A DNA stretch of 64,000 nt, taken from NCBI RefSeq assembly GCF_003261055.1, contig NZ_CP030074.1:124001-188000 (forward strand), in the 5' to 3' direction. Shown in pieces: positions 14,783 to 34,231 of the stretch. The translations under genes and the position numbers were made by a program. The stretch comes from Streptomyces cadmiisoli (GTDB lineage Bacteria > Actinomycetota > Actinomycetes > Streptomycetales > Streptomycetaceae). Under the pieces are notes generated by a model. The model made no database searches, had not been told where the DNA came from, and was given only the letters and a program-made list of their open reading frames with translations. Every line of letters begins with the position of its first letter. Position 1 is the first letter of the stretch.

Positions 14783-14821
14783 ACTAACGTCCATGATCTT
14801 TTGAAGCATCGACACGTTAGT
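14783..14821. promoter_or_regulatory. Inverted repeat at the parA start
   Basis: ACTAACGT at 14783-14790 and ACGTTAGT at 14814-14821, 8-bp perfect arms with 23 bp between. They straddle the candidate parA starts, where an autorepressor such as ParA would bind. They differ from the TGATTACG palindromes. Confidence 0.5.
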
Positions 14822-15884: not shown

Positions 15885-15903
15885 GTGATTACGGCGTAAT
15901 CAC
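15885..15903. repeat. parS-like palindrome, copy 5
   Basis: GTGATTACG-G-CGTAATCAC, perfect, intergenic between the 14937-15746 gene and the small zinc-ribbon gene. Confidence 0.8.
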
Positions 15904-16039
15904 TTGCCGCCCCGCCAGGAGGTACCGCTGCTGTGGCTGTTCACGTTCCGCCCGCCTGGCAGCCGGCCCGGGGGTGCCCCTATGTGTTTGGTCAAGGTGG
16001 TGGGTGCCGGGCGGGAGTCCGTCTGGCACTCTGCCGGCC

Positions 16040-18668: not shown

Positions 18669-18855
18669 CATGGCGCGGCCGGGGGAGGAGGACCGACCCG
18701 GTACACAGGGAGGCCACACACGTGGGGGAGACCTCACCGGGCATGCCCGGCCCGGGCATGCTCTCCCCGGATTCCGCGCTCATCGGTGTGCCGGCCGGTA
18801 GGGCATCATCGACACCCGGGCGGCGTTCAGGATCGCTCGGTGATGTTCGAGACCC

Positions 18856-19890
18856 AGTCGCTTCAGTCGCTTCGGTCGCTGGATCCAGGCCTCGGTTGCG
18901 CACTTCGGTCGCTGGATTCGAACCCTGGCATCGCGCTTGAGTCGCTTCGGTCGCTTCAGTCGCTGGATCCGGCGCGCCCGGCCAGGGGCTCATGTCGAGC
19001 GGATCAGCCCAGCGGAGACCGTGCGCGGCCCAGGAACTGGCGGGGGAGGGGCCTCCAAAAGTACCTCGCTATATATAGGGGACAGGTGCGGGCGCAGTCG
19101 GCGGGGATCGTCTCCGTCCCGATGCCAGGCCTTGAGTCGCTTCAGTCGCTTCGGTCGCTGTCGAGAACAAGCCTGGCTTCCCATAGGGTGGTTCTCGGTC
19201 AGGAGTTTGCAGGCGCTCGACCTGGCGGGCGATCCAGCCTGAATCGGGGCGTAAGTCCGGAGGTTCAACCCTGAAGCCATGCCGGGAGCCCCGCCGCGGG
19301 CGCGCCCCGGCAGCGCACTTCGGTACCGCTCCACCCCGTGTCTCATTCTTGGTCGCTTCAGTCGCTCGGGTCGCTTCAGTCGCTGGCGGAAATACGGCGG
19401 TTCTGGGGCAGCGACTGAAGGTTCAGCGACTCAGCGACTGTTCAGTCGCTGCCCCCAGGGGGGATAAAACCGCAGGTCAGAGGCCTATGGAACAGAATCA
19501 GCGACCGAAGCGACTGAAGTTCCGGGTATATGAAGACATTCATGTGCGCGCGTGTGCGTTATATATAGGAAGCTTGAGTCGCTTCAGTCGCTGTTCCAGG
19601 TATGGCTACCTGTTTGACCTGCGGTTTTGTCCGCGTGCCTGAGCAGCGACCAAAAGCCCCTCGGTCGCTGACAGGCTCGTTCGGTCGCTCGAGAGCCTTC
19701 CGACCGTCGCATCATCGACACGGCGGCAACGCAACTTCGCATGTGCTCCACTACCTCACCAGCCACGTTCGCTAGTCTGTGTCCGTCGTTGAGTCGCTTC
19801 GGTCGCTGATAGGGGGTGCAGATGCCTGTTGAACTGCGGTTTCCCCGCAGCGACTCAGGGCAGCCCGCCCCTGGTCCTTCAGTCGCTGAG
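18856..19890. repeat. RGTCGCT direct-repeat field, putative origin of replication module 1
   Basis: I count close to 30 copies of RGTCGCT or its complement, often in tandem with 9-bp period (AGTCGCTTC AGTCGCTTC GGTCGCT). Clusters lie at 18856-18880, 18937-18964, 19132-19158, 19351-19384, 19410-19450, 19500-19519, 19574-19592 and 19789-19807. AT-rich patches (CTATATATAGG near 19068; GTTATATATAGG at 19559-19570) lie among them; the second is 3 nt before TTGAGTCGCTTCAGTCGCT. Iterons plus AT-rich DNA directly before a primase-polymerase gene are the expected form of a plasmid origin. No gene is evident between 18406 and 19821. Confidence 0.7.
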
Positions 19891-20937
19891 CTGTCACTCG
19901 CCACCGCGCGCTGGTGTACGCGCCGTGGCTGGCCCGTGCATCCCCTCTCCGCGGGCCGCAAGACCCCCGCAGGCAACTGCCCCGACTGCCGGGAGAACCC
20001 GCACCCGCCGGCCGACTGCGCCTGCCTGCCTGCCGGCCGCTGGTGCCACGGGTTCCACGCTGCGACCCTCGATCAGGATCGCATCCAGCAATGGTGGGGG
20101 ACACACCCGGAGTTCGGTATCGGGGTCTCCTGCGGTCCGGCCGGGCTGATCGTGCTCGACGTGGATGCTCACGCCGCAGAGCCGCCCATCCGGGACCGGC
20201 TCCTGCCCGGCATCCCCATCGCCGACCACATCGACCTCACCGGACTGGCCAACGGCTTCCACACCCTCGCCATCCTGGCCGCACTCCGCGGCCGGCCCAG
20301 CCCCGCCGCCGACGAGACCACCTTGCGCGTCCGAACCCCCTCCGGGGGCCTGCATGTCTGGTACCGGGTCGGCGACGGCCGACCCTGGCAGTCCTCCGTC
20401 GGCTCCAGTGCGGGCCGTGCGCTGGCCTGGCAGGTCGACATCCGAGCCCACGGCAGCTACATCATCGCCCCGGGCACCACCACCCGGCAGGGCACCTACA
20501 CACCGATCGGTGATGCCCGTGAGCCCGCTGCGCTTCCCCTCTGGCTGGCGCAGGAGCTGGAGCGCACCGGTCATCTGCCCGCCCCCAACCTCCCCGGGCC
20601 CAGGCCGGTCCCGCCCCGTGCCCGGCAGGCCGTGCTCGCCGCCGGCGGCGGCCGCGACCGGGTGCGCCCCGTGCTGGCCTCGGTACTGGCTCCCGTCGAA
20701 GTGTGCGGGCAGGTGAGTGAGGGCGCGGGGTTCTCCGACGCGCTCAACCGTGCCGCCTACACGCTCGGCGGGCTGATCGCAGCCGGCCGCCTGCCCCGGG
20801 AAGAGGCGGAACAGGCCCTGAAGGAGGCCGCGACCGTGGCCCGTCCCGGACAGGAGCGGCGTATCGAGCAGATCATCCGCAGCGGCCTCGCCGCCGGCCT
20901 CAAGCGCCCCCTCCACGACAACGGGGGGCGCGCATGA
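19822..20937 (+). CDS. Bifunctional primase-polymerase (Prim-Pol), module 1
   Basis: 371 residues. A Cys-rich segment, CPDCRENPHPPADCACLPAG plus RWCHGFH (residues 53-78), is a probable zinc site. The Prim-Pol catalytic core follows with LIVLDVDAH (Asp113 and Asp115), TPSGGLHVWY (173-181) and DIRAHGSYIIAPGT. A C-terminal helical region with SDALNRAAYTLGGLIAAGRL may contact the helicase. Such enzymes make primers and extend DNA in plasmids, phages and actinomycete integrative elements. I chose the ATG at 19822, behind AGGGGGTGCAG. It overlaps the helicase gene as ATGA. A close paralogue sits at 32534-33601. Confidence 0.85.
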   Translation: MPVELRFPRSDSGQPAPGPSVAELSLATARWCTRRGWPVHPLSAGRKTPAGNCPDCRENPHPPADCACLPAGRWCHGFHAATLDQDRIQQWWGTHPEFGIGVSCGPAGLIVLDVDAHAAEPPIRDRLLPGIPIADHIDLTGLANGFHTLAILAALRGRPSPAADETTLRVRTPSGGLHVWYRVGDGRPWQSSVGSSAGRALAWQVDIRAHGSYIIAPGTTTRQGTYTPIGDAREPAALPLWLAQELERTGHLPAPNLPGPRPVPPRARQAVLAAGGGRDRVRPVLASVLAPVEVCGQVSEGAGFSDALNRAAYTLGGLIAAGRLPREEAEQALKEAATVARPGQERRIEQIIRSGLAAGLKRPLHDNGGRA

Positions 20938-22454
20938 CGTCGCCCAGGCCCGAGACCCTCTTCGAGTTCGACCCCGAGGCGGTCGCCGCCCAGATCCGGG
21001 CTCAGGGGCCCGCCGCCGTGCCGCGTCCGGCGAAGTCCGACACGGACCGGGCCGCGGCCGGTGAGGCGACGGCGGACGGGCTGCTGCCCGACACGCTGTC
21101 CGACCGCGGCAACGCCAAGCTGTTCGTCAGGCTCTACGCCAACGACTACCGGCACGTCCCCGGTATCGGCTGGTACCGGTGGGACACCACCCGCTGGCAG
21201 ATCGACGAGGACGACACGGTCCTGTGGGCCGCCGGTGACCTCGCGGAGAACATCGCCACCCACGATCCGCGAGGCGTCTACACCACCACCGCGCTCCAGC
21301 GGCACCGCCAGCGGGCCCTGTCCACCACCGGCATCAACGCCATGCTCTCCCAGGCGAAGTCCGCCCCCGGAATGGTCCTGAACGCCGCCCTACTGGACGC
21401 GGACCCGTACGCGCTGTGCACGCCGGCGGGCATCGTGGACCTGCGGACCGGTCTGCTGAAGGTCCCCGACCCGAACAAGGACTTCCACTCCCGCTCCACC
21501 ACCGTGGGCCCCCAGCACCTGCCCACGCCCCGGTGGGAGAGGTTCCTCAGCGACACCTTCGGCGAGGGCACCGAAGGCCGGGAGATGATCGACTACCTGC
21601 AACTGCTGCTCGGATACTCCGTGACAGGCGACGTCGGTGGCCAGATCCTCCCGTTCCTCTTCGGCTCCGGCAAGAACGGCAAGTCCGTTCTGCTCGACGT
21701 CCTGATGAAGTTGCTGGGCGACTACGCCGACGCCGCCCCGCCCGGCTTCCTGATGGCCCGTCCCTACGAGGGCCACCCCACGGACCTCGCGGAGCTGCAC
21801 GGCCGCCGAGTCATCGTCTGCTCCGAGGTCAAGCCGGGCGACAAGTTCGACGAGGCCCGCGTCAAGCTGCTGACAGGCGGCGACCGTATCAAGGCCCGCC
21901 GTATGCGGCAGGACTTCTTCAGCTTCGAGCCGACCCACAAACTGTGGCTGCTGGGCAACCACCGGCCCGAGGTCGGCACCGGAGGCTTCGCCTTCTGGCG
22001 CCGTATGCGGCTGATCCCGTTCGAGCGCGTCGTCCCCGACCATCTGAAGATCGACAACCTGGCCGACATCCTCGTCACCGAGGAAGGGCCCGGGATCCTG
22101 GGCTGGCTCATCGCCGGTGCACGGCACTACCTCGCCGGCGACCGCGACCTCACCGGTCCCGAGTGCGTCCGTATCGCCACCACGGCCTACGCGGAGACCG
22201 AGGATCACACCGGCCGTTTCTACGAGGAGTGCTGCATTCTGGACCCGGATCTTCGAGCGGAGCAGACGGCGCTCTACGCCGCATACAAGTCGTGGTGCCA
22301 GAATGAAGGGGCGCCGGTCATGTCCTCACGGGCGTTCGCGGCCCGGACCCGTGAACTCGTGGGGCTGGCCTCGCCCAAGGAGATGATCCTGTCCAACCAG
22401 CGCAAGCACTACCCGGGCATCGGACTGCTCACCGACCAGGAAAGGGACGCATGA
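20934..22454 (+). CDS. SF3/P4-type replicative helicase (D5-like), module 1
   Basis: 506 residues. An N-terminal domain (LPDTLSDRGNAKLFVRLY, then YRWDTTRWQID and ADPYALCTPAGIVDLRTG) precedes the SF3 ATPase with Walker A FGSGKNGKSVLLDVL (residues 243-257), Walker B-like RRVIVCSEVK, KARRMRQDFFSF, and sensor-like LWLLGNHRPEV. A short C-terminal winged domain follows. This matches phage/plasmid primase-helicases of the P4 alpha/D5 type, which open origins and unwind DNA. The ATG overlaps the Prim-Pol stop and the gene end overlaps the third gene, so the three are one coupled operon. Confidence 0.85.
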   Translation: MTSPRPETLFEFDPEAVAAQIRAQGPAAVPRPAKSDTDRAAAGEATADGLLPDTLSDRGNAKLFVRLYANDYRHVPGIGWYRWDTTRWQIDEDDTVLWAAGDLAENIATHDPRGVYTTTALQRHRQRALSTTGINAMLSQAKSAPGMVLNAALLDADPYALCTPAGIVDLRTGLLKVPDPNKDFHSRSTTVGPQHLPTPRWERFLSDTFGEGTEGREMIDYLQLLLGYSVTGDVGGQILPFLFGSGKNGKSVLLDVLMKLLGDYADAAPPGFLMARPYEGHPTDLAELHGRRVIVCSEVKPGDKFDEARVKLLTGGDRIKARRMRQDFFSFEPTHKLWLLGNHRPEVGTGGFAFWRRMRLIPFERVVPDHLKIDNLADILVTEEGPGILGWLIAGARHYLAGDRDLTGPECVRIATTAYAETEDHTGRFYEECCILDPDLRAEQTALYAAYKSWCQNEGAPVMSSRAFAARTRELVGLASPKEMILSNQRKHYPGIGLLTDQERDA

Positions 22455-22852
22455 GCTCCCTGATCACCGAGGACGAGGTCAGCCACGAAACCGAGTTCGT
22501 ATGGCTGGAAGACATCGCCGACCTGGATTACGTGCGCCAGAGTCTGGACAGGCTCCCGACTCGCAAGGGCAGGCCTGCGTACCACCGCGACGGCCGTATG
22601 GTGGGTTACGCCCTGCTCGGGCCCACCGCCAAACCCTCACGTACCTCGGGGACGTTCCGCCGTCGGGTCTTCTGGCTGCTGCCCCACGATCGCGACACCG
22701 AGCCGGACGGCCTCTACGCCAAGAGCGCTCCGGCCGAAGCCGTCGACCCGCGCACCCTGGAGCCGCGCGTGAAGGGCTACAAGACGGAGCGGTCCGAGGG
22801 CGGGCCACCCTCCACCGCGATGCAGCAACTGGGGATAACGCTGCCGCTCTGA
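22451..22852 (+). CDS. Conserved small protein of the replication cassette, module 1
   Basis: 133 residues, no recognised family. It starts MSSLITEDEVSHETEFVWLE and contains DYVRQSLD, RDGRMVGYALLG, RRRVFWLLPHDRD and PDGLYAKSAPAEAVDPRTLE. The same pattern recurs in the 30361-30768 product: MSSLL, VWLE, DYVRQALD, RDGRMVGY, RRRVFFLLPHDRDNQPDGLY and EAVDPRT. Being third in both cassettes and coupled to the helicase by ATGA, it is likely an accessory replication factor (loader, processivity or copy control). Soluble, basic C-terminus. Confidence 0.75.
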   Translation: MSSLITEDEVSHETEFVWLEDIADLDYVRQSLDRLPTRKGRPAYHRDGRMVGYALLGPTAKPSRTSGTFRRRVFWLLPHDRDTEPDGLYAKSAPAEAVDPRTLEPRVKGYKTERSEGGPPSTAMQQLGITLPL

Positions 22853-23120
22853 ACGGCACGCCCGCGGTCGCCGATGGCGGAGACCGGTGAAGGCCGGTGA
22901 GGGAAGCGGGTCAACCGCAAACCTTCGGTGAGCACTTCGCACCGGTGGCGGTGGGTGCGGTGCCTGAGGGATTCCGCTGATTTTCCCGCTCCGCCACCTT
23001 GTCCGCGCCGGAAATCCTTCGTCCGGCGATCTCCGCGAAAGCAATCCCCGCCGTCGTGCCGGCTCCGCGCCCGTCCCCGGGGGTGCGGGACGGACCGTCC
23101 CGTATGGCACCGTGGATGTG

Positions 23121-23154
23121 GGTTTGGCCCGTGCTCCCCCGAGCGGGCCAAACC
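23121..23154 (-). terminator. Terminator of the L,D-transpeptidase gene
   Basis: GGTTTGGCCCG and CGGGCCAAACC (11-bp arms, 12-nt loop), 30 bp past the minus-strand stop. The 331-bp gap 22853-23183 also contains a 17-bp palindrome CGGGACGG-A-CCGTCCCG at 23086-23102 and no gene. Confidence 0.65.
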
Positions 23155-23183
23155 TTCCCCACAGCACCTGTGCCGCCCGCGGC

Positions 23184-24383
23184 TCAGCGCAGGGCGCTCC
23201 TGCGCTGCCACGCGTCCCAGGACAGGTTCCACTCGCCGAAGCCGTTGTTCGGCGCGACCGTGCCCTTGGTGTCCTCGCCCTCGATCTCGAACGGGTCGCC
23301 GGGCCGCACCTGCCCGTAGAGCCATCGCGCGTCGGCGTCGCTCATCCCGATGCAGCCCGAACTGCGGTTGGCGTTGCCGAGATACCGGGCGTTCCACGGC
23401 GCGGCGTGCGCATACGTTCCGGACCAGGTCAGTCGCATCGACCAGTCGACCATCTTGTTGTAGGCGTCACCGAGGCCGACGGTCTCGGAGTTCATGTTGA
23501 TCGTGCCCTCCTTCGCCATCAGCACCGTGGTGCCCCGCCAGGAGCGTTTGTCGCCGCCGGGTGTGCCCCCGGAGACCGGGATCCGCCGGACGGTGCTGCC
23601 GTCGCGCACCAGCGTCAGCTCGTGTTCGTCGAGGTCGACCCGTACGACCTGGCGGTCGCCGATGGTGAAGTCGGTCGAGTAGTCGCGGACGAACCAGCCG
23701 CCGTCCGGCCCGGAATCGGTGCCGTTCAGCTCTGCCTTCAGGGTGACCCTGGTGCCGGGCTTCCAGTACGTCCTGGGCCGCCAGTCCACCCGGTCCTTGC
23801 CCGACCAGTCGCGCATCCAGCCCCAGGAGCCCTCGGTGCCGTTCGACGTGGTGACCTCGAGCTGCTTCTCCACCTCGGCACGGTTCTCGACGGGGTGGTC
23901 GAAGACGAGCGAGATCGGCTGGGCGATTCCGACGGTGGTGCCGGTGCCGGGCCGCCAGTCCACCTTGTTGACCTTGTCGGCCTCCGCCGTGGTGAAGGAG
24001 GCCCGCCTCGTGCCGGCGGTGCCGCCCTTGCTCCGGGTCGCGGCCGTGACCCGATAGGCCGCGCCGGGCACCGTTTTGCGGTTCGAGATCCAGGACGTGC
24101 GGTCGGCCGAGAACCGGCCGTCGAGTCTGCCTCCTTCGGCGTCGGTGACCGTGACCGAGGTGAGGCTGCCCCGCTCGGCGGTGACCTCGACCGGTTCGCC
24201 GGCCGTGACCCGCCGTCCCTCCGGGGCCACGGACACGACGGCGGGCCGGTCGTCCGCCACCCCGCCGTCGGCCGGTGGGGGAGTGGTGCCGCCGGAGCAG
24301 GCGGCGAGCGGTGCCAGCAGGGCGGCGGCGCCGGCAGCCCGCAGGCCCGAGCGGGCAAGGGCAGGTACACGTATGCGCTGCAA
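23184..24383 (-). CDS. Lipoprotein L,D-transpeptidase (YkuD) with Ig-like domains
   Basis: 399 residues. A signal peptide with lipobox LAAC (Cys29) is followed by two Ig-like domains (about 45-250; the second has GIAQPISLVFDHPVENRAEV) and a YkuD catalytic domain with YAHAAPWNARYLGNANRS and the nucleophile motif SSGCIGMSDADA. These enzymes make 3-3 cross-links in peptidoglycan outside the membrane. The TTG at 24383 is chosen because GGAGG lies 6 nt upstream. It diverges from the FemX-MurJ operon over a 215-bp shared promoter region, which suggests common control of envelope genes. Confidence 0.9.
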   Translation of the reverse strand: MQRIRVPALARSGLRAAGAAALLAPLAACSGGTTPPPADGGVADDRPAVVSVAPEGRRVTAGEPVEVTAERGSLTSVTVTDAEGGRLDGRFSADRTSWISNRKTVPGAAYRVTAATRSKGGTAGTRRASFTTAEADKVNKVDWRPGTGTTVGIAQPISLVFDHPVENRAEVEKQLEVTTSNGTEGSWGWMRDWSGKDRVDWRPRTYWKPGTRVTLKAELNGTDSGPDGGWFVRDYSTDFTIGDRQVVRVDLDEHELTLVRDGSTVRRIPVSGGTPGGDKRSWRGTTVLMAKEGTINMNSETVGLGDAYNKMVDWSMRLTWSGTYAHAAPWNARYLGNANRSSGCIGMSDADARWLYGQVRPGDPFEIEGEDTKGTVAPNNGFGEWNLSWDAWQRRSALR

Positions 24384-24598
24384 CAGGACCTCCGTGGGTG
24401 GGACAGCGGCCCGGACAGGGCGGCTGCCGTGACCCTAGAGTCGGAAAATCCCAGGTGAGCGCCGCGACGGCGATGTGACAGCGACTGGTGGGAAACGGTC
24501 ATGGTCCGGTCACATACGCCGCGCGGCCCGGTCACAGGCGGCTGTGAGCATCTCGGCACCCCCGCGACAGGACGGGGAGGAACAGAGAGGCCCACACC

Positions 24599-25795
24599 GT
24601 GTCAGCGCTGCTCGTGCCGCCCGGCCGCGGTCACCCGGCCCGGAATCCGGATGTCCGGCTGACGTCCCTCCCCGCCGGGACCTACCGCGCGTTCCTCGCC
24701 TCCCCCGCCGGCACCGCGCTCGGTGCCGGATTCCTACAGTGCCCGTCCTGGGCGGCCGTCAAGGAGGGCTGGCGGGCCCTGCTGCTCGGCTGGGGACCGG
24801 ACCCGGAAGCCGGTGGGCTGAACGGCGTCGCACTGGTCCTGCTCCGCCAGTTCCCCGGCACGCGCAAGTACTTCGCCTACCTCCCGGAGGGGCCCGTCGT
24901 CGACTGGGCGGACCCGGACCTCGACGGCTGGCTCACGCCGCTGCTGGAGCGTCTGCGCGCCGAGGGCGCCTTCGCGGTGCGCATCGGCCCGACCCCGCCG
25001 TACCGGCGCTGGGACGCGGCCCTCCTGAAGTCCCGCACCGGCCCCGGCCGGAGTCTGGGTGACGTCCTCGCCGCCGAGGTCGACCCGCTGGGCACGGCGG
25101 TCGCCGAACGGCTGCGCGCCCGCGGCTGGCACCGGTGCGGCGGCGACGGCCCCGGCCAGGACGGCGACGCCCAGCCGCGCCATGTCTTCCGCATACCGCT
25201 CACCGGACGCGACAGGGACGACCTGTGGGCCGGACTCAACCAGGAGTGGCGGCGCAATGTCCGCCGCGCCGGGAAGGAAGGCGTGGAGGTGGTGCTGGGC
25301 AGCGCCGCCGACCTGCCCGAGTTCCACCGGCTGCTGCGGATCACCGAGGAGCGCGACGGCTTCCGGCTCGGGCGGTCGCAGGCGTACTACGAGCGCCAGT
25401 ACGCGGCCCTCAACGCCGAGGAGCCGGGCCGGATGAAGCTGTATCTCGCCCGTCACCACGGTGAGGTCCTCGCCGCCCACACGATGATCACGGTGGGCCG
25501 ACGGGTCTGGTACCAGACGGGCGCCTCCGCCGACCACCGCCGTGAGGTGCGGCCCTCCAACGCCCTGCAGTGGCGGATGCTGCTGGACGCCCACGCGCTC
25601 GGGGCCGACGAGTACGACATGCGCGGGGTACCCTCCACACTCGACCCCGACGAACGTGCGTACGGACTGCTGCGGTGGAAGCTCGGCACCGGCGGACAGG
25701 TCGTCGAGACGCTGGGGGAGTGGGAGAGACCCTTGGGTGGCACCGCCAATCACACGCTGTACCGCGCCTTCCAGGCGTATCTGGCCCGCCGATGA
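24599..25795 (+). CDS. FemX/FemAB-type peptidoglycan aminoacyltransferase
   Basis: 398 residues with two GNAT-like halves as in the Fem family. Landmarks are LLRQFPGTRKYFAYLPEGPV near residue 85, FRIPLTGRDRDDLWAGLNQE then RRNVRRAGKEGVEVV near 210, FHRLLRITEERDGF, and YDMRGVPSTLDPDE near 340. Fem enzymes use aminoacyl-tRNA to add bridge residues to lipid II on the inner membrane face. The GTG at 24599 starts the operon; the stop overlaps the flippase gene (ATGA). A Fem-type gene (VanK) is needed for glycopeptide resistance in S. coelicolor, which makes an envelope-modification role likely here. Confidence 0.85.
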   Translation: MSALLVPPGRGHPARNPDVRLTSLPAGTYRAFLASPAGTALGAGFLQCPSWAAVKEGWRALLLGWGPDPEAGGLNGVALVLLRQFPGTRKYFAYLPEGPVVDWADPDLDGWLTPLLERLRAEGAFAVRIGPTPPYRRWDAALLKSRTGPGRSLGDVLAAEVDPLGTAVAERLRARGWHRCGGDGPGQDGDAQPRHVFRIPLTGRDRDDLWAGLNQEWRRNVRRAGKEGVEVVLGSAADLPEFHRLLRITEERDGFRLGRSQAYYERQYAALNAEEPGRMKLYLARHHGEVLAAHTMITVGRRVWYQTGASADHRREVRPSNALQWRMLLDAHALGADEYDMRGVPSTLDPDERAYGLLRWKLGTGGQVVETLGEWERPLGGTANHTLYRAFQAYLARR

Positions 25796-27447
25796 CGACG
25801 GTGACACCGGGCGCGGGACGTGCCGTGCCCGATCCGCGGGCCGAGGCCGCGGACACCGAAGGGACGGCTGAGCCGCCGTCGGCGCTGCGCAGCAGCGCGG
25901 TCATGGCCGCCGGGTCGCTGGTGTCCCGCGTCACCGGGTTCGCCCGGTCCGCCGTGGTCGCCGCGGCACTCGGTATCGGCCTGACCGCCGACGGCTACGC
26001 GGTCGGCAACTCCCTGCCCACGATCGTCTACGTCCTGCTCCTCGGCGGCGCGCTCAACGCCGTCTTCGTGCCCGAACTGGTCAAGGCCGCCAAGGAACAC
26101 GACGACGGCGGCGCGGCGTACACGGACCGGCTGCTCACCGTCTGCGTCGTCGCCCTGCTCGCCCTCACCGCAGGCGCCGTGTGGGCGGCACCCGTGATCG
26201 TCGACGCGTACACCGACTACAGCGGCGACCAGGCCGCCATGACGGTCGCGTTCGCCCGCTTCTGCCTGCCGCAGATCTTCTTCCTCGGGCTGTTCACGCT
26301 GCTCGGCCAAGTGCTCAACGCGCGTGGCCGGTTCGGCGCGATGATGTGGACCCCCGTCCTCAACAACGTCGTGGTCATCGCCGTCTTCGGCCTGTTCCTC
26401 GCCCTGGGCGCCGGGGATCCGCTCACCGCCGGGGAGACCGCGCTGCTCGGCTGGGGCACCACCGCCGGTATCGCCGTCCAGGCGCTGGCCCTCGTCCCCG
26501 TCCTGCGCGCGGTGCGCTTCCGCTGGCGGCCCCGCTTCGACTGGCGCGGCAGCGGACTGACCCGCCCGCTGCGTTCGGCGGGCTGGCTGGTGCTGCTGGT
26601 CCTCGCCAACCAGGCGGCCTACTGGGTCACCACCCGGCTCGCCACGACCGCGGGCCTGGCGGGCGGTCCCGGATTCAGCGCGTACAACAACGCCTACCTC
26701 CTGTGGGTCGTCCCGCACGGCATCATCACGGTCTCCCTGGTCACCGCGCTGATGCCACGGATGAGCGCGGCCGCCGCCGACGAGGACACCGCGGCCGTCC
26801 GGCGCGACGTCTCCGCCGCGCTGCGCAACAGTGCCGCCGCCGTCGTACCTGCCGCCTGCATGCTGTTCGCCCTCGCCCAGCCGCTGATGTCCGTCGTCTT
26901 CGGCTACGGCAGGACCGGCGCCGCGGACACGGCGGCCATGGCCGGGATCCTGATGGCCTTCGCGCCGGGACTCGTCGCCCTGTCCGGCCAGTACGTGCTC
27001 TCGCGCGCCTTCTACGCGCTGTTCGACACCCGCACCCCCTTCCTGCTCAACCTGGTGGTCGTCTGCCTGAACGCGGGTCTGTCCGTGGCCGCCTGCATGC
27101 TGCTGCCGAACCGGTGGGCCGTGACCGGCATGGCGGCGGCGTACTCCCTGGCCCTGTGGGCGGGTTGGGCGGTGACCGGCCGGGTGCTGGGGCGGCGGCT
27201 GGCCGTGGCCCGGCCGCTGCGGTCGTCCGCGGCCGGCGCCCATGTACGGCTGCTGCTCGCCGCGCTGCCGGCCACCGCACTCGGTCAGCTGGCCGCCCGC
27301 GGCGCCGCTCCGGCCGGGGCCGTCGCCGCGCTGGCCGCCGGAGCGGCCGTCATCGTGCTCACCTTCGCCCTGCTCGCCCGCCCGCTGCGGCTCACCGAAG
27401 TCCAGGCCCTGCTCACCGGCGCCCGCCGGCGACTGGCCCGGAGCTGA
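25792..27447 (+). CDS. murJ: MurJ/MviN-family lipid II flippase paralogue
   Basis: 551 residues with about 14 membrane helices. Family features are SLVSRVTGFARSAVVAAALG near residue 45, ADGYAVGNSLPTIVYVLLLG, ALNAVFVPEL, LGQVLNARGRFGAMMWTPVL, LMPRMSAAAAD and SRAFYALFDTRTPF. MurJ moves lipid II to the outer face of the membrane. It has no large C-terminal kinase-like domain as in the essential mycobacterial MurJ, so it is probably a second, specialised copy. The ATG at 25792 overlaps the FemX stop, so lipid II modification and export are coupled genetically. Confidence 0.85.
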   Translation: MTTVTPGAGRAVPDPRAEAADTEGTAEPPSALRSSAVMAAGSLVSRVTGFARSAVVAAALGIGLTADGYAVGNSLPTIVYVLLLGGALNAVFVPELVKAAKEHDDGGAAYTDRLLTVCVVALLALTAGAVWAAPVIVDAYTDYSGDQAAMTVAFARFCLPQIFFLGLFTLLGQVLNARGRFGAMMWTPVLNNVVVIAVFGLFLALGAGDPLTAGETALLGWGTTAGIAVQALALVPVLRAVRFRWRPRFDWRGSGLTRPLRSAGWLVLLVLANQAAYWVTTRLATTAGLAGGPGFSAYNNAYLLWVVPHGIITVSLVTALMPRMSAAAADEDTAAVRRDVSAALRNSAAAVVPAACMLFALAQPLMSVVFGYGRTGAADTAAMAGILMAFAPGLVALSGQYVLSRAFYALFDTRTPFLLNLVVVCLNAGLSVAACMLLPNRWAVTGMAAAYSLALWAGWAVTGRVLGRRLAVARPLRSSAAGAHVRLLLAALPATALGQLAARGAAPAGAVAALAAGAAVIVLTFALLARPLRLTEVQALLTGARRRLARS

Positions 27448-27469
27448 CCCCGACCGAGGGAGGTACCTG

Positions 27470-28153
27470 ATGCCCCGAGTGCTCCTGGTGGAGGACGACC
27501 CGTCCGTACGCGAAGGGGTCGAGCTCGGCCTGCGCCGCCGCGGCCACGACGTGCGCTCCGCCGCGACGGGGGAGGCCGGACTCGTCGCGCTGCGCGAGTT
27601 CCACCCCGATCTGCTCCTGCTGGACCTGATGCTGCCCGGGATGAACGGCGTCCAGGTCTGCCGGCAGGTGCGGGAGAACAGCCAGCTCCCGATCATCATG
27701 CTCACGGCCCGCGGCGACGACTTCGACGTGGTGGTGGGACTGGAGGCCGGGGCCGACGACTACATCGTCAAGCCGGCCCGTACCGAGGTGATCGAGGCCC
27801 GGATCCGCGCTGTGCTGCGCCGTATCGACGACCCCGGCCAGGGCCGCCCGGCCGTCGAGGTGCACGGCGACCTCGCCATCGACCGGGCGGGACTGACGGT
27901 GACCAGGTCCGGGCACCGCCTGGCGCTCGCGCCCTCCGAACTGAAACTGCTGCTGCACCTGTCCGCCGCCCCCGAGCAGGTGTTCAGCAGACAACAACTG
28001 CTGGAGCACGTGTGGGAGCACAGCTTCCACGCCGACGCGCGGCTGGTCGACGCGTGCGTCAGACGGCTCCGCACCAAGATCGAGGACGAGTCGCAGCCGC
28101 CGCGCTACATCCAGACCCTGCGGGGTTTCGGCTACCGCTTCGGACCGCTGTGA
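27470..28153 (+). CDS. Response regulator, OmpR/PhoB family
   Basis: 227 residues. The receiver has LVEDD (7-11), phosphoacceptor Asp52 in LLLLDLMLPGMNG, Thr in MLTARGDD and Lys in YIVKPAR. The C-terminal winged helix includes LAPSELKLLLHLSAAPEQVF, DACVRRLRTKIED and TLRGFGYRFGP. The ATG at 27470 follows GAGGGAGGTACCTG. It is fourth-from-last in the envelope operon and coupled to its kinase by GTGA. It probably controls this operon and/or the divergent transpeptidase gene. Confidence 0.9.
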   Translation: MPRVLLVEDDPSVREGVELGLRRRGHDVRSAATGEAGLVALREFHPDLLLLDLMLPGMNGVQVCRQVRENSQLPIIMLTARGDDFDVVVGLEAGADDYIVKPARTEVIEARIRAVLRRIDDPGQGRPAVEVHGDLAIDRAGLTVTRSGHRLALAPSELKLLLHLSAAPEQVFSRQQLLEHVWEHSFHADARLVDACVRRLRTKIEDESQPPRYIQTLRGFGYRFGPL

Positions 28154-29727
28154 TCACCCTGTCCCGTTCCGAGGCCGGCCCCGCGCACGGCGCCCGCACG
28201 GCCGACGGCTCCCCGGCGGGCGACGACCCCGCACCGGCCGTGCGCCGCGCGAGCCTCGGGCGGGCGCTGCGCCGGGCCCGGACCCTGACGTTCGGGCTGC
28301 GTACCCGGCTCGTGCTGGCGTTTCTGCTGATCGCCGCCGTCACCGCCGTCACCACCGCCGCGCTGACCTACCGCGAGGCCCGCAACGCCCTGCTCAAGAC
28401 GACCCAGGACACAGCCGTCTCGTCGTTCCGCGACCAGGTCCAGCAGACCGCCTTCTCGCTGCCCGTGGAGGCCGTCACCCTCCAGGAGCGGTTGCGCGAG
28501 ATCGCCGCCAAGGGCAAGCCGCGCCCCTGGGTGGTCTTCGCGGAGTACGGCGCGGTGCGGGCCTCGTCGGGCGCGAACCCCGTCTCCACCGTGATCACCC
28601 CCGAACTGCGCCGCGCCGCCGGCGCCGACCCCCACGGCACCTTCCAGCGGGTCGTCAAGGACGGCGAGCCCTATCTGACGATCGCCATGCCCACCGTCTT
28701 CGCGGCAGGCCCGGACACGGTGCTGCCCACCCGGCTCGTGGTCTACGCCGTCATGCCGATGACCGACGAGCAGACCAACGTCGACGCGCTCCTCGTCGCG
28801 GCCCGCAACGGCGCCCTGCCCGGCCTCGCCATCGCCCTCGTCCCCGCGCTGCTCACCGCCCGCAGTGTCCTGCGCCCGGTGCGCGAGCTGCGGCGGGCCG
28901 CCCGCAGCATGGGCAGCGGCCGGCTCGACACCCGCATCCGGCCGCAGGGAAACGACGAACTCGCCGAACTCGCCCACACCTTCAACGACTCCGCGAGCGA
29001 ACTCGAGCACACCGTGCGCGAGTTGCGCCAGGCCGAGGCCCGGGCCCGCCGTTTCGCCGCCGACGTCTCCCACGAACTGCGCACCCCGCTGGCCGGGATG
29101 CTGGCGGTCACGGAAGTCCTCGACGAGAGCGCGGAACAGCTCGATCCCGACACCGCGCGGGCGGTACGGCTGGTCAGCACCGAGACCGGCAAGCTCGCCG
29201 TGCTCGTCGAGGACCTCATGGAGATCTCCCGCTTCGACGCGCGCGCGGCCGAGCTGAACACCGACGAGGTCGATCCGGCGGAGGCCGTCCGCAAGACCCT
29301 TCAGGCCCGGCACTGGACCGACGACCGGTTCCGCACCGAACTGCCCGAGGGCCTACGGGCGCTGCTCGATCCGCGTCGCTTCGACATCGTGATCGCCAAT
29401 CTCGTCGGCAACGCGCTGCACCACGGCGGGGCGCCCGTCACCGTACGGCAGCGCACCGGCGTGCGCTCCGACGGCAGCCCCGTGCTGATCACCGAGGTCG
29501 CCGACAGCGGCCCCGGCATCAGCCCCGAGGCCCTGCCGCACATCTTCGACCGCTTCTTCAAGGCGGACGCCGCCCGCACCCGTTCCGCGGGCAGCGGCCT
29601 CGGGCTGGCGATCACACTGGAGAACGTACGGCTGCACGGCGGGACGATCCACGCGGGGAACCTGCCCGGTGGCGGTGCCCTCTTCACCGTCGAACTGCCG
29701 CTGCACACGGAAGGCCACGTCGGATGA
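28150..29727 (+). CDS. Sensor histidine kinase, HisKA type
   Basis: 525 residues. A 45-residue cytoplasmic lead, TM1 at about 52-73, an extracellular sensor of about 140 residues, TM2 at about 215-238, a HAMP-like linker (RPVRELRRAARSMGSGRLDT), H-box FAADVSHELRTPLAGM with His308, N-box IVIANLVGNALHHGG and G-boxes VADSGPGIS, FDRFFKAD and GSGLGLAIT. The extracellular loop probably senses envelope state. The GTG at 28150 overlaps the regulator stop and the gene end overlaps the lipoprotein gene (ATGA). This arrangement, kinase plus lipoprotein, recalls CseB/CseC with CseA. Confidence 0.9.
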   Translation: MITLSRSEAGPAHGARTADGSPAGDDPAPAVRRASLGRALRRARTLTFGLRTRLVLAFLLIAAVTAVTTAALTYREARNALLKTTQDTAVSSFRDQVQQTAFSLPVEAVTLQERLREIAAKGKPRPWVVFAEYGAVRASSGANPVSTVITPELRRAAGADPHGTFQRVVKDGEPYLTIAMPTVFAAGPDTVLPTRLVVYAVMPMTDEQTNVDALLVAARNGALPGLAIALVPALLTARSVLRPVRELRRAARSMGSGRLDTRIRPQGNDELAELAHTFNDSASELEHTVRELRQAEARARRFAADVSHELRTPLAGMLAVTEVLDESAEQLDPDTARAVRLVSTETGKLAVLVEDLMEISRFDARAAELNTDEVDPAEAVRKTLQARHWTDDRFRTELPEGLRALLDPRRFDIVIANLVGNALHHGGAPVTVRQRTGVRSDGSPVLITEVADSGPGISPEALPHIFDRFFKADAARTRSAGSGLGLAITLENVRLHGGTIHAGNLPGGGALFTVELPLHTEGHVG

Positions 29728-30329
29728 GAGGCACGCGCGCGAGCTGCCGGCGCATCGCCGCCGCGCTGCCGGTCGCGCTGCTGCTCGCCGGGTGCGGTAT
29801 CCAGCGGACCGGTGTCGTGGAAGCGGGCGGTCCGGCCACGATCGAGATGCCACGGGACCGGCGTGCCGCGATGCTGCTCTTCTTCCGGTCCCCGGACGGC
29901 GGGCTGAGCCCGGTGTCGCGGCCCAACTTCCAGGGATCCGCGGCGGATCTCGCGCAGAACGAGGTTCCGCCCCGGTTCGCGGAGAAGGCGATCATGGCGC
30001 TGCTCGCCGGTCCCAAGGGTGCCGACGAGACCGCGGCCGGGCTCAGCACGTCACTGCCCCGTGCCACCGGCGGGGAGTCCGTGGGGGTCAAACCCGTGTC
30101 GGAAACCGAGGCTTTGGCCCGGGTGCCCGTCGCGCTGGACGAACTCGACGACACCGCACTGCGTCAGCTGATCTGCACGATCGCCTACGCCGTGGACGAC
30201 GACGGCCGCGCTCTGGTGCGGATGACGGGAACGTACGACTCCGCGGCGTCCGGCAGCTGCGATCTCGACGTCAAGGGCGGGACCGAGCGCGAAGCGGTCG
30301 GGACACGGCCGCCCACCACGACCGGGTAG
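29724..30329 (+). CDS. GerMN-domain lipoprotein
   Basis: 201 residues with a lipoprotein signal (lipobox LLAGC, Cys near residue 25). The mature part has a GerMN-like fold: MLLFFRSPDGGLSPVSR, IMALLAGPKGADETAAG, and LARVPVALDELDDTALRQLI. GerMN domains occur in LpqB, which modulates the MtrAB two-component system, so this lipoprotein may modulate the adjacent kinase at the outer membrane face. It is the last gene of the FemX operon and is translationally coupled to the kinase. Confidence 0.8.
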   Translation: MRGTRASCRRIAAALPVALLLAGCGIQRTGVVEAGGPATIEMPRDRRAAMLLFFRSPDGGLSPVSRPNFQGSAADLAQNEVPPRFAEKAIMALLAGPKGADETAAGLSTSLPRATGGESVGVKPVSETEALARVPVALDELDDTALRQLICTIAYAVDDDGRALVRMTGTYDSAASGSCDLDVKGGTEREAVGTRPPTTTG

Positions 30330-30360
30330 ACCACCGGTCCTGTGCCGGGCCCGGCCCGTT

Positions 30361-30768
30361 TCAGCCGGGCAGGCTGTCCACGGCGGGCTTGGCCGGAGCG
30401 GTCAGCGGGGCCGGGCCACGCTGTGACCGCGGGGTCTTCTCGCCGACCTTTCTGGGGCGGATGGTCCGCGGATCGACGGCCTCCCCGGGGGCGCCCTCCT
30501 GGTAGAGCCCGTCGGGCTGGTTGTCCCGGTCGTGCGGGAGGAGGAAGAACACGCGCCGCCGGTACAGTCCGCTGTCCGGGTCGGCCGGGGCCGAGTCGTC
30601 GAGCTCCGTGTATCCGACCATGCGGCCGTCACGGGCGTAGCGCGGCTTGTTCCGCCGGCGCGGCGTCTTGTCGAGGGCTTGGCGTACATAGTCGAGGCCG
30701 CCCACGTTCTCCAACCACACCACTTGCGCTTCGTGGGCGAGATCGCTGTCGCTCAGCAGCGAACTCAT
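30361..30768 (-). CDS. Conserved small protein of the replication cassette, module 2
   Basis: 135 residues, paralogue of the 22451-22852 product: MSSLLSDSDLAHEAQVVWLE, DYVRQALDKTP, YARDGRMVGYTELDD, RRRVFFLLPHDRDNQPDGLY and EAVDPRTIRP, with a different Pro/Arg-rich C-terminus. The ATG at 30768 is preceded on the minus strand by a GGAAGGGATCCCACCC stretch that can serve as ribosome site. Unlike module 1 it is 227 bp away from the helicase, not coupled. It converges on the GerMN gene. Function unknown; presence in both cassettes argues that it matters for replication. Confidence 0.75.
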   Translation of the reverse strand: MSSLLSDSDLAHEAQVVWLENVGGLDYVRQALDKTPRRRNKPRYARDGRMVGYTELDDSAPADPDSGLYRRRVFFLLPHDRDNQPDGLYQEGAPGEAVDPRTIRPRKVGEKTPRSQRGPAPLTAPAKPAVDSLPG

Positions 30769-30995
30769 GGGTGGGATCCCTTCCTGGTCCATCCGGCCGG
30801 GGGGCGGCCACAGTTCGTGTTCGTCAGAGGGCCCGACAAGGGGGACCTGGTACGACGCACGTCGCCGAAGCCCGCCGGACCTTGCCGTCCGGAGCCGGGC
30901 CCGGTGCCCCACATGATGCCATCGTATGAGGCACGGGCGAGAGCTGCGAGGGGTTCTGCCCCCCGTGCTCTCCGATCGCGATCATTCAGGGACAC

Positions 30996-32537
30996 CTAGT
31001 CCACCACCAGGGCGATGCCGGGGTAGTACTTCCGGCCGTTGGATTTGATCATGTCTGCGGGGGTGGTGAGGCCGACTTCTTGTCGGACGCGTTGGGCGAA
31101 GACGCGGGCGTTGGCGGGGCGGATGCCTTCGGTGGTGCTGCACCAGGCGCTGTAGGCGGTGTAGAGGTGGCCTTGTTCGGTGCGGAGTTCGGTACCGTGT
31201 CCGGTTTCTGTGTTGGTGTTTTGGGTGCAGCATTCGGTGAGGAAGCGTCCGATGTGGTCTTCGGTGGCTGCGTAGGCGTGGGTGGCGATGCGGACGCGGT
31301 CGGGGCCGGCGAGGGTGTTGCGGGTGGTGAGGTATCGGTGTGCTCCGGTGAGGAGCCATTGGAGGATGCCGGGTCCTTCGTCGCGGACGAGTTCGAGGGC
31401 GAGGTTGTCGATTTTGGCTTCGTCGGGGACGACGCGTTCGAAGGGGATGAGGCGTATGCGGCGCCAGAAGGCGAAGCCGCCGGTGGAGACTTCGGGGCGG
31501 TGGTTGCCGAGGAGCCAGAGGTGGTGGGTGGGGGTGAAGGAGAAGAAGTCCTGGCGCATGCGGCGGGCTTTGATTTTGTCGCCGCCGGTGAGGAGGCGGA
31601 CGCGGGCTTCGTCGAATTTGTCGTTGGGTTTGAGTTCGCTGCAGACGATGAGGCGTCGGCCGTGGAGTTCGGTGAGTTCGGTGGAGTGTTCGGAGAAGGA
31701 GCCGCGGTCCATGAGGAAGCCGGGTGGGGCGGCGTCGGCGTAGTCGCCGAGGATCTGCATCATCACGTCGAGCAGGACGGACTTGCCGTTCTTTCCCTCG
31801 CCGTGCAGGAACGGGAGCACTTGTGCGCCGACGTCGCCGGTGACGGAGTAGCCGAGCAGCAGGTGCAGGAACTCGATCATCTCCCGCCCTTCCGCGTCCC
31901 CACCGAACGTGTCCGTCAAGAACCGGTGCCAGCGGGGGATCGGCATGTCCTGGGGAGCGACGCTGGTGGCACGGGAGTGACAGCCCTTCTCCGGATCGGG
32001 ATCACTGAGCAGACCCGTGTACAGGTCGATCACCCCCGCCGGGGTGCACAGGGCGTAGGGGTCACCGTCCAGCTCGTCGGGGTCGACGGACAGGCTGGGA
32101 GAGGCCTTCGCCTGGGTCAGCAGCGCCTTGACCCCGGCGGTCGACAGCGTCCGCCTGCGGTGCATGTGCAGCTCCCGCTCGCTGAAGCGACCGCTCGGGT
32201 CGCGCAGCGGCATGGCTTCGGCCATTTCGCCGGCCGCCCACAGTGCGGCCTTCTCACCGCCGGTGCGCTTCCACCGGTAGCCGTCCCACGCGAACCAGCC
32301 CAGCCCGTCCACATGCCGGAACCGCCCACGGAACCGCTCCACGAACAGCTTCGCGTTCCCCCGGTCCGTCAACGTCCCCGGCAGATCGCGGTCGTTGACG
32401 GCGTGCGCCGCGCCGGTCGGCGGGGGACCGCCCTGGGCGGGCACGGAGGGCGTCAGGGGCCCCTCCAGGCTCTCGAACTCGAGCATCTGCTGTGCGGCCG
32501 CCCCCGCGTCGAACCGCACGCTCCTGCCGCCGCTCAC
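30996..32537 (-). CDS. SF3/P4-type replicative helicase, module 2, mosaic codon use
   Basis: 513 residues, same domain order as the module-1 helicase: LPGTLTDRGNAKLFVERFRG, GDPYALCTPAGVIDLYTG, Walker A HGEGKNGKSVLLDVMM, RRLIVCSELKPNDKFDEARV, MRQDFFSFTPTHHLWLLGNH and GGFAFWRRIRLIPFERVVPD. The GTG at 32537 overlaps the Prim-Pol stop. Codon choice changes inside the gene: from about 31740 downward the minus strand uses GAA, AAA, CTC and CGC almost exclusively, whereas the upstream half uses GAG, AAG and CTG like its neighbours. That suggests recombination with a foreign homologue. Confidence 0.85.
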   Translation of the reverse strand: MSGGRSVRFDAGAAAQQMLEFESLEGPLTPSVPAQGGPPPTGAAHAVNDRDLPGTLTDRGNAKLFVERFRGRFRHVDGLGWFAWDGYRWKRTGGEKAALWAAGEMAEAMPLRDPSGRFSERELHMHRRRTLSTAGVKALLTQAKASPSLSVDPDELDGDPYALCTPAGVIDLYTGLLSDPDPEKGCHSRATSVAPQDMPIPRWHRFLTDTFGGDAEGREMIEFLHLLLGYSVTGDVGAQVLPFLHGEGKNGKSVLLDVMMQILGDYADAAPPGFLMDRGSFSEHSTELTELHGRRLIVCSELKPNDKFDEARVRLLTGGDKIKARRMRQDFFSFTPTHHLWLLGNHRPEVSTGGFAFWRRIRLIPFERVVPDEAKIDNLALELVRDEGPGILQWLLTGAHRYLTTRNTLAGPDRVRIATHAYAATEDHIGRFLTECCTQNTNTETGHGTELRTEQGHLYTAYSAWCSTTEGIRPANARVFAQRVRQEVGLTTPADMIKSNGRKYYPGIALVVD

Positions 32538-33601
32538 GGGCTCTCCCGGAGTCGGAACGGATGCCGGTGGCCGGCGTCGAGCCCGCCTTCGATGATGCGG
32601 TCGTTGCGCCGGGACTGCCACGGCCGCGCGGCCTCGGCGGCGTCGTGCAGCAGCCCGCGGGCCTCGTCGGCGGCGAGGGAGCCCGCGGCGACGAGTCCCC
32701 CGGCCGTGTACGCGGCCCGGTTGAGCTTCTCGCTGAACCCCGCGCCCTCGGGTGTCGCGGCGCACTCGCGCACCTCGTCGAGCAGGGGCCCGAGCACCCG
32801 CCGCGCCTCTCCGGTGCCGGCCGCCCCGGCACGGGCCGTGGCGGGGGCTGTGGCGGCCGTACGGCGGGGGAGCGGGTCTTCCCCGTGGCCGGTGCGCAGC
32901 AACTCGTCCGCCAGCCAGCCCGGCAGGGGCGCCGGAGCCCGCGCCGGGCCGACGGGGCGGTAGTCGCCGTCCTGGGTGCGGGTGCCGGGGGCGACGATGT
33001 ACCCGCCGTCCGCGCGGACGTCCACCTGCCAGGCGAGGGCGGCCCGGGAGCCGGAGCCGGTCGAGGAGCGGAACAGCGTGGGGTGGGCGGAGGCGTCGTA
33101 CCAGACGTGCAGCCCTCCGGAGGGTGTGCGGACTCTGAGGGTCGACACGTCCTCGGCGGGATCGGGGCGGCCGCGGTAGGCGGCGAGCAGGGCGAGGGTG
33201 TCGAACCCGGTGGTCATGCCGGACAGGTCGACCCGGTCGTCGATGCGGATCCCGGGCAGGAGCCTGGCCCGCTCCGGGACCGGCACGGAGTGGGCGTCGA
33301 CGTCGACCACCACCAGGCGCGCGGCCCCGCAGGAAACACCCACCCCGAAACCGGGGTTGGCCGACCACCAGCTGTCCAGGAGCCGCGTGTCCGTGGTGGC
33401 CGCGTGGAAACCGTGGCACCAGCCTCCCCGGGCCAGGCACGGGCAGTCCTGCGGCCTGTGGGGGTGCGCTCTGCACGCCGCGCAGTTCCCCGCGGGCGTC
33501 TTGCGGCCCAGGGCGAGCGGATGGACGGGCCAGCCGCGCGAGGCGCACCAGCGCGCCACCTCCACCGGTGCGGCAGGGGAGTTGTTCGCGGTCGTCAGCA
33601 C
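32534..33601 (-). CDS. Bifunctional primase-polymerase (Prim-Pol), module 2
   Basis: 355 residues, clear paralogue of 19822-20937: RGWPVHPLALGRKTPAGNC, the Cys-rich CAACRAHPHRPQDCPCLARG, LVVVDVDAH (Asp100 and Asp102), LRVRTPSGGLHVWY and DVRADGGYIVAPGT. All catalytic positions seen in copy 1 are kept, so both should be active. The GTG at 33601 is chosen because AAGGACGACCAC precedes it. Its upstream region, unlike that of copy 1, carries RGTCCCT repeats, so the two cassettes probably recognise different origins. Confidence 0.85.
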   Translation of the reverse strand: MLTTANNSPAAPVEVARWCASRGWPVHPLALGRKTPAGNCAACRAHPHRPQDCPCLARGGWCHGFHAATTDTRLLDSWWSANPGFGVGVSCGAARLVVVDVDAHSVPVPERARLLPGIRIDDRVDLSGMTTGFDTLALLAAYRGRPDPAEDVSTLRVRTPSGGLHVWYDASAHPTLFRSSTGSGSRAALAWQVDVRADGGYIVAPGTRTQDGDYRPVGPARAPAPLPGWLADELLRTGHGEDPLPRRTAATAPATARAGAAGTGEARRVLGPLLDEVRECAATPEGAGFSEKLNRAAYTAGGLVAAGSLAADEARGLLHDAAEAARPWQSRRNDRIIEGGLDAGHRHPFRLRESP

Positions 33602-33768
33602 GTGGTCGTCCTTGTGGGGTTTGCCGGCCCACCGCCCGGCACCCGGCAGTCGCCGACGCACAGGCGAGAGGACCACAGCGGCAGGGACGTCGGGGACCGT
33701 TCTGCGCGGGTGTGGTCGAGCCGGGGGACGGAAGGAACAGTGCATCGCACCACGTTCTACCAGCTCTC

Positions 33769-34231
33769 CGGTCCCTTGAGTCCCTTACGAAAGTTCCAGC
33801 AAGAAGCCCGCCGGAGCCGGTCGGGGGCACATGCCGTCTTCCATCGGTTCGGCGGAAATCCGGTTGCTCCGAGCCGACGGAACGAGGGACCCGGCCGGAC
33901 AGGGTCTGAACCCGGTAGTGCTTCAGTACCTTCGGTCCCTGGGGTGTTTTTGCCGGTCAGAGGCCTTCTCGACGGCTGAACAGGGTCTGAAGGGACTGAG
34001 ATCCCTATTTATCAGCGGAGTATGCATTGTTTCGTATGTGTGTACGCGCGTGTGCATACATACACAAGTATGTATATCTTACCTATGCGTATGTGCGCTG
34101 ATAATAGGCGAGTTGAGTCCCTTCAGTCCCTCAGAAGAGGCTGGACAAGGCTCTGACCTGGGTTTTTATGCCAGGGACCGAGCAGGGTCCGGTCCCGGTC
34201 CCTGCCCCGGGTTCCGTCCCTGGACCCTCCG
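33769..34231. repeat. RGTCCCT direct-repeat field, putative origin of replication module 2
   Basis: Copies or complements of GTCCCT lie at 33769-33786 (GGTCCCTTGAGTCCCTTA), 33930-33941, 33990-33996, 34113-34131 (TTGAGTCCCTTCAGTCCCT), 34174-34202 and 34216-34221. Between them 34018-34107 is AT-rich and alternating purine-pyrimidine (TATGTGTGTACGCGCGTGTG, then TACACAAGTATGTATATC). It ends ATAATAGG a few bases before the longest repeat, the same layout as ATATATAGG-AGC-TTGAGTCGCTTCAGTCGCT at 19561-19592. Likely iterons plus an unwinding element. Confidence 0.65.

Follow-up and report, generated by a model that had tools for sequence, protein, structure and literature searches.

The 64,000-nucleotide stretch of Streptomyces cadmiisoli DNA analysed here (the window, which spans bases 124001-188000 of a contig of 969,901 bp; the genome measures 10.24 Mb and has two contigs) carries two homologous three-gene cassettes, A and B, each encoding a primase-polymerase (Prim-Pol), an SF3 helicase and a DUF6009 protein and each adjoined by a field of short repeats (iterons). 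The iterons of the two fields differ in one base, AGCGAC at cassette A and AGGGAC at cassette B, and among relatives this difference tracks two clades of the cassette proteins, an association that the initial annotation of this DNA had missed. It is probable, judging from the sequences, that each cassette is an autonomous iteron replicon and that A and B are compatible since their initiators read different iterons.

The initial annotation had placed two homologous cassettes of the same gene order at these positions, and the Pfam matches (Table 1) together with BLASTP identities of 55% (Prim-Pol), 60% (helicase) and 58% (DUF6009) between A and B bore this out. The DVD, SGGLH, GxGKNGKS, CSE, GNHRP and FWRR motifs were found in both cassettes, in agreement with its statement that all visible catalytic residues are kept. 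Both Prim-Pols combine the PF09250 domain with the DxD, SxH and hD motifs of AEP Prim-Pols, and both helicases combine D5_N with an SF3 ATPase having Walker A, B and C motifs, as in the P4/D5 type (TIGR01613 scores 277 and 251 bits). The Prim-Pol and helicase genes overlap by 4 bases in A and B, as do the helicase and DUF6009 genes in A; in cassette B the latter two are separated by approx. 230 bp, and by 130-245 bp across the listed B cassettes.

The iteron content of the two fields was compared with dinucleotide-shuffled sequences. At 18800-19899 there were 29 copies of AGCGAC (mean 1.07, maximum 5 in 500 shuffles) and none of AGGGAC, while at 33741-34800 there were 11 copies of AGGGAC (mean 0.78, maximum 5) and none of AGCGAC. 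When up to two mismatches were allowed, the tandemly paired A unit matched the genome at 12 places, 10 of which are in the origin A field (reversed control 0); of the five matches for the B unit, three fall at cassette B and the other two belong to a third locus (see below). Next to both initiator gene candidates there is a short direct-repeat array, the arrangement of an iteron replicon. When aligned, origins A and B displayed one layout, namely iterons followed by a common element (AAAACCGCAGGTCAGAG), then a core flanked by inverted iterons, and finally a reversed copy of the common element (partial in B); in origin A an inverted pair, 19462-19479 and 19615-19632, is 94% complementary. Between the inverted common elements the AT content averaged 46% (28 A pairs) and 45% (23 B pairs), compared with about 30% in the window. 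DnaA boxes are common, though not universal, in iteron-controlled plasmid replicons; the box TTGTCCACA, with up to one mismatch, was not enriched here: the 56 A regions had 10 and the 42 B regions had 2, against 14 and 15 for the reversed control. The domains found and the arrays, which lie far beyond the shuffles, support the initial proposal of replication-initiator cassettes with repeat fields.

In order to define the two types, DUF6009 was searched for genus-wide in 392 genomes and was found in at least 120 of them among the matches listed; PLSDB contained it in 324 of 72,556 records, at 505 places. From the listed matches 132 were used, the window's own two, G168, G330, G320 and matches weaker than 6.1e-44 being excluded, and 100 of the 119 stretches defined were taken, those left out being 16 matches, mostly weaker ones, and three close to contig ends. 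That the homologues are always chromosomal single genes, which the initial annotation had named as fatal to its reading, was excluded, though seven of the 100 stretches lay on contigs above 7 Mb. The stretches and the window yielded 110 helicases scoring above 500 bits (61 A, 49 B). In a FastTree phylogeny rooted on phage Taquito, the helicase clades A (57) and B (50, including the third locus) were each monophyletic, with supports of 1.0 and 0.92. The Prim-Pol tree, labelled by helicase type, gave the same split (55 versus 42, support 0.91 and 1.0), and so did the DUF6009 tree, where the node support was just 0.52. Best-hit labels had first suggested that the Prim-Pol is exchangeable between types; this was rejected since the helicase labels give a clean split.

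Iteron words were counted in up to 1.9 kb upstream of each cassette, and 12 of the 110 helicases, which had no usable upstream Prim-Pol, were left out of the scoring. AGCGAC-type iterons were present upstream of 51 of the 56 A cassettes and AGGGAC-type iterons upstream of 37 of the 42 B cassettes, the mean counts being 15.8 AGCGAC and 0.9 AGGGAC per A cassette and 15.3 AGGGAC and 0.7 AGCGAC per B cassette. Pooled over these regions, the discriminating base was C in 885 and G in 50 cases in A, and G in 641 and C in 30 cases in B; the flanks of the iteron core are alike in both types. Ten further stretches were examined later, and all eight scorable cassettes followed the type rule; the other two either had no helicase (L202) or were cut by a contig end (L210), and three further matches in new places were not taken (one near a contig end, two partial). 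One of the eight, an A cassette with 14 AGCGAC copies (L201), comes from a member of a different family within the class. Four of four hand-picked PLSDB cassettes also followed the rule.

The common element behaved otherwise. AAAACCGCAGGTCAGAG was found within four mismatches at 48 of the 56 A and 37 of the 42 B cassettes, whereas the reversed pattern matched 4 and 1. It often forms an inverted pair that brackets the core, and its majority consensus was equal in A and B, which is partly expected since the search used that word. Within one origin, one element has changed by type and the other, AAAACCGCAGGTCAGAG, has not. As for the protein reading the iterons, 1 of the 340 Prim-Pol columns was sharply type-specific, as were 14 of the 127 DUF6009 columns and 32 of the 486 helicase columns. 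Since the helicase and DUF6009 have more such columns than Prim-Pol, and since arrays persist at loci lacking Prim-Pol, the helicase, perhaps with DUF6009, is the probable iteron-binding protein; the columns themselves are no proof of this, given the shared ancestry. In phage P4, the C-terminal domain of the initiator reads the origin iterons. Pox_D5 matched the C-terminus of helicase A (Pfam, 6.8e-6), the match of helicase B being below the cut-off, and the structure model of the helicase (mean pLDDT confidence score 47.5) was too weak for a fold search. The DUF6009 model (pLDDT 73.5) matched no PDB structure with an E-value of 0.001 or below.

The initial annotation regarded a segment with two cassettes as unusual, but 15 of the 81 sampled contigs with complete cassettes carried more than one. 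The 81 contigs, a sample that includes many draft assemblies, comprised 39 with one A, 27 with one B, 14 with one A and one B, and one with two A and one B. Thus all 15 multi-cassette contigs, the host contig included, carry both types; the permutation mean was 7.67, and 1 of 20,000 permutations reached 15, in a test which treats contigs as independent (this is not strictly true) and includes a host contig chosen for having the pair. When every DUF6009 match was counted, the 22 contigs with more than one, again with the host, were 16 AB, two AAB, three BB and one AA, and two of the three BB contigs pair B with the subclade B' described below (L060; L076 with L077). Spacing and orientation of the pairs vary among contigs, the similarities of the A and the B helicases on 17 paired contigs were uncorrelated (Spearman -0.06, p about 0.63), and the paired state took 12 and 15 parsimony changes. 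Since the similarities are uncorrelated and the arrangements vary, the A+B pairs have been assembled many times. A conserved, ancient A-B pair was rejected because there is no co-phylogeny.

The recurrence of A+B pairs and the different operon layouts (DUF6009 spacing) could also reflect a division of labour, for instance vegetative replication by one cassette and replication after transfer or in spores by the other. We regard this as improbable, since contigs with a single A (39) or a single B (27) outnumber the pairs (15) and the pairs are not co-inherited. Single-type records include an A-only 84-kb linear plasmid with parAB, for which the PLSDB gene table, itself incomplete, lists no other replication initiator, and a record of 130 kb whose single helicase place is of type B (30 kb inspected).

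Incomplete copies of the cassettes also occurred. Among those checked, Prim-Pol was lacking from cassettes with a type-matched array (L060, L077, L099, the A part of L203, the third copy of the host, and HUAS 31) as well as from cassettes with few iteron copies (L054, L121, L123, L134). Nine of the 12 helicases without a usable Prim-Pol, three of which are cut by contig ends, occur in genomes with another, Prim-Pol-preceded helicase. The Prim-Pol-less copies fit redundancy and suggest that Prim-Pol can be supplied in trans. The initial annotation had named decay of one cassette in related strains among the findings that would speak against it, and this was partly true, some second cassettes lacking Prim-Pol or array. 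In L203 (2836-8996) a B cassette is followed by a tandem A helicase and DUF6009 gene with their own A iterons and no second Prim-Pol match, apparently two origins sharing one Prim-Pol.

The cassettes without Prim-Pol bear on a further explanation, in which the cassettes act outside plasmid replication, e.g. in defence against incoming DNA: a Prim-Pol beside a helicase in a Thermus element was dispensable for replication of the element and lowered the uptake of external DNA (PMC7693054). Such a role is highly improbable here in view of the large iteron arrays beside the operon, the frequent plasmid location and the A-only linear plasmid with no other annotated initiator.

The host contig ends in a 12,768-bp inverted repeat of 99.9% identity, corresponding to the terminal inverted repeats of linear Streptomyces plasmids, and because of this repeat the 970-kb contig is read as a linear plasmid. 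The best PLSDB matches of the cassette proteins were Streptomyces plasmids. Besides A and B, the plasmid has at 239.6-242.1 kb (L152:11648-13950) a third, partial B locus, made up of a helicase gene and AGGGAC iterons with no Prim-Pol or DUF6009 match. Its helicase, 84 kb from cassette B, is of B type and 90% identical; over codons 203-502 it differs from that of cassette B by one base and before these codons it is strongly divergent, pointing to a recent exchange (gene conversion) between the two. As a result of this exchange the ratio of nonsynonymous to synonymous substitution rates (dN/dS) of the two copies was not used. For helicase A, dN/dS against one relative was 0.07, a sign of purifying selection on this gene and a point in favour of the model proposed below. 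At about 224.9-225.1 kb (L218) A iterons are accompanied by the common element CAGGTCAGAG, and the 20 kb inspected gave no cassette match; this is a relic of an A origin. The third B locus and this stretch lie 67-84 kb from cassette B, and both would be accounted for if a further A+B segment had been fused to the plasmid or had arisen by duplication. The initial annotation had offered plasmid fusion or a dual-origin replicon; the linear contig, the single-type records, the uncorrelated pairs, the third B locus and the A relic are consistent with both.

We propose the following mechanism. The SF3 helicase would be the initiator, assembling, perhaps with DUF6009, on the 9-bp iterons around the comparatively AT-rich core immediately upstream of the operon; it would then open the core, and Prim-Pol would prime synthesis. 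A and B would be ancient paralogues that read iterons one base apart (AGCGAC versus AGGGAC), while AAAACCGCAGGTCAGAG is found with either type. With initiators that recognise different iterons, origins of the two types could reside on one DNA molecule with no mutual incompatibility, and fused or composite linear plasmids would therefore survive as A+B, with extra copies of the same type tending to lose their array or Prim-Pol. The host plasmid would be such an A+B composite, with parA/parB-like genes beside A, and both of its origins may fire today. In a broader form, which we advance tentatively, a single base of the 9-bp iteron may be a compatibility code defining two (with B', three) mutually blind classes of actinomycete plasmid replicons, and the giant linear Streptomyces plasmids may repeatedly have formed as A+B dual-origin composites in which each origin has its own iterons, the second element is shared and Prim-Pol is shareable.

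Several results weigh against these proposals. Five A and five B cassettes did not follow the rule (98 upstream regions scored). Four of the five B exceptions belong to the subclade B', whose core is CGGGAC (four of four members with Prim-Pol upstream and two Prim-Pol-less ones; the members are L060, L069, L076, L099, L105 and L135); a subclade with a core of its own in fact speaks for the model. The remaining exceptions are L049, which has no array, L100, a composite with a Prim-Pol from a decayed B, and the divergent A cassettes L116, L126A, L127 and L139 with no clear array. Contig G317 is a BB contig with no B', and G179 carries two complete divergent A cassettes and one B. Beside six A loci there are second A-type helicases (L212-L217), all six free of stops over the aligned length. 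In the DNA inspected no complete cassette belongs to any of them, five of the six are convergent to the A genes, and most lack an iteron array (9, 6, 2, 2, 2 and 1 AGCGAC copies upstream); they are possibly regulators or leftovers. A C-terminal winged-helix iteron reader in the helicase is a guess from the Pox_D5 match and a helix-helix-strand-strand pattern. Sampled stretches of the host plasmid displayed no clear switch point of GC skew, and hence no clear origin signal of that kind. Finally, the iteron difference tracks one ancient split (plus B'), so the coupling to protein specificity would rest on few independent events.

This last point, with the similar core flanks, is what would be expected if the one-base difference were a founder effect of the old A/B divergence and either initiator accepted either array. 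We consider this unlikely, as each type retains its base across hundreds of copies even though the origin A DNA shares no more than 60-80% identity with 193 of the 202 PLSDB records it matches, and as contigs with several complete cassettes are only of the A+B kind.

Array B is also smaller and more varied than array A in the window, and by blastn against PLSDB origin B matched 12 records versus 202 for origin A. These differences would fit a host plasmid in which only A works as the origin, while B, left over from a fused plasmid, is slowly decaying and persists by chance; this is a real possibility. The par-like genes lie beside A, the second B locus 84 kb away has retained a helicase and array only, and some B loci elsewhere lack Prim-Pol; SCP1, moreover, has two biochemically working ParABS systems, only one of which is crucial for maintenance (PMC13245405). 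However, the three genes of cassette B are open and have their motifs, its array and common element are kept, and both types are complete on 15 contigs including the host. We retain the compatible two-replicon model as the better explanation.

Prim-Pol replicons with iterons (PMC3583192), linear replicons with a helicase and iterons (PMC13152386), P4-type initiators and dual partition (PMC13245405) were known already. The phage P4 alpha and D5-type initiators (TIGR01613, PF08706) have an SF3 helicase of the same family, and helicase B is 42.6% identical over 89% to the fused form of actinophage Taquito. Unlike the P4 and Taquito forms, the cassettes described here have separate Prim-Pol and helicase genes, an added DUF6009, and two types with iterons different in one base. 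Plasmid pWTY27 (repA, Prim-Pol repB, iteron) resembles them in having a Prim-Pol gene with an adjacent iteron field, and its locus is also able to run a linear plasmid (PMC3583192). In contrast to the present cassettes, the binding site of pWTY27 RepA is a long inverted repeat that overlaps with GTGGGAAC/TTCCCAC repeats, and an SF3 helicase/DUF6009 cassette is not described in the passages of that report considered (PMC3583192). According to a published summary (PMC13152386), the origins of the rep1/rep2 replicons of SCP1 and pSLA2-L combine a helicase gene with an iteron, which resembles the arrangement described here. The dual ParABS of SCP1 provides a parallel of two same-type systems with distinct DNA sites on one linear plasmid, in partition and not in initiation (PMC13245405). 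The titles and abstracts searched described neither the two iteron types nor the common element nor the A+B rule; subscription literature on SCP1, pSLA2-L and linear-plasmid loci was outside the search, so a prior description is possible. The term DUF6009 was likewise not found in the literature searched.

If the two-type rule holds, it would make the approx. 500 DUF6009 places of PLSDB a typing scheme that needs sequence only, would predict which plasmids are able to coexist or fuse, and would offer a test bed for one base pair setting initiator specificity. DUF6009 would also gain a likely setting, replication initiation. A 2026 paper describes replication of two linear Embleya replicons as undefined and Streptomycetaceae replicons as still to be characterised (PMC13152386); the DUF6009 proteins found in Embleya (P0323, P0324) are a lead for these linear replicons. 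No cassette was annotated within the 45 kb inspected of SAP1 of S. avermitilis.

Table 1. Cassettes, putative origins and neighbouring genes (positions in the window).
Feature	Position	Strand	Remarks
Cassette A Prim-Pol (PF09250)	19822..20937	+	Pfam E 1.6e-35; motifs present
Cassette A SF3 helicase (D5_N, DUF5906, Pox_D5; TIGR01613)	20934..22454	+	D5_N E 2.7e-35; motifs present
Cassette A DUF6009 protein	22451..22852	+	Pfam E 8.1e-64
Cassette B Prim-Pol (PF09250)	32534..33601	-	Pfam E 5.9e-34; motifs present; alternative upstream ATG at 33745
Cassette B SF3 helicase	30996..32537	-	D5_N E 7e-33; GTG start overlaps Prim-Pol stop
Cassette B DUF6009 protein	30361..30768	-	Pfam E 5.4e-64; longer frame 30361-30912
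Origin A AGCGAC/GTCGCT iteron field	18857..19890	+	9-bp spacing frequent; unit approx. AGCGACTGA
Origin A left arm of common element AAAACCGCAGGTCAGAG	19466..19482	+	
Origin A core, presumed unwinding region	19532..19560	+	between inverted iteron arms 19499-19531 / 19561-19593, inner ends TATAT-rich
Origin A right arm of common element	19612..19628	-	2 mismatches
Origin B AGGGAC/GTCCCT iteron field	33771..34361	-	partly 9-bp period; variants such as AGGGTCTGA
Origin B inverted iteron arms	33982..34131	-	33982-34017 / 34096-34131, flanking comparatively AT-rich core
Origin B copy of common element AAAAACCCAGGTCAGAG	34151..34167	-	2 mismatches
Genes between cassettes	22853..30360	.	L,D-transpeptidase (YkuD), FemAB, MurJ, response regulator, histidine kinase, one protein with no Pfam match
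ParA-like ATPase	13508..14815	-	PF01656 match, the sole one found on the host plasmid; near cassette A
ParB-like protein	12108..13661	-	HTH_ParB above cut-off, ParB_N just below; near cassette A

The two cassettes are convergent and 7.5 kb apart, as had been noted; the genes that they enclose are largely, and not all, cell-envelope genes. Membership of the envelope genes in the module was rejected, since no PLSDB record covers 80% of the region (megablast) and other pairs differ in spacing and orientation. Near cassette A there is an IS110-family transposase gene (15900-17225), and just beyond cassette B lies a frame with a C-terminal cellulose-binding domain (CBM_2; 34849-36687).

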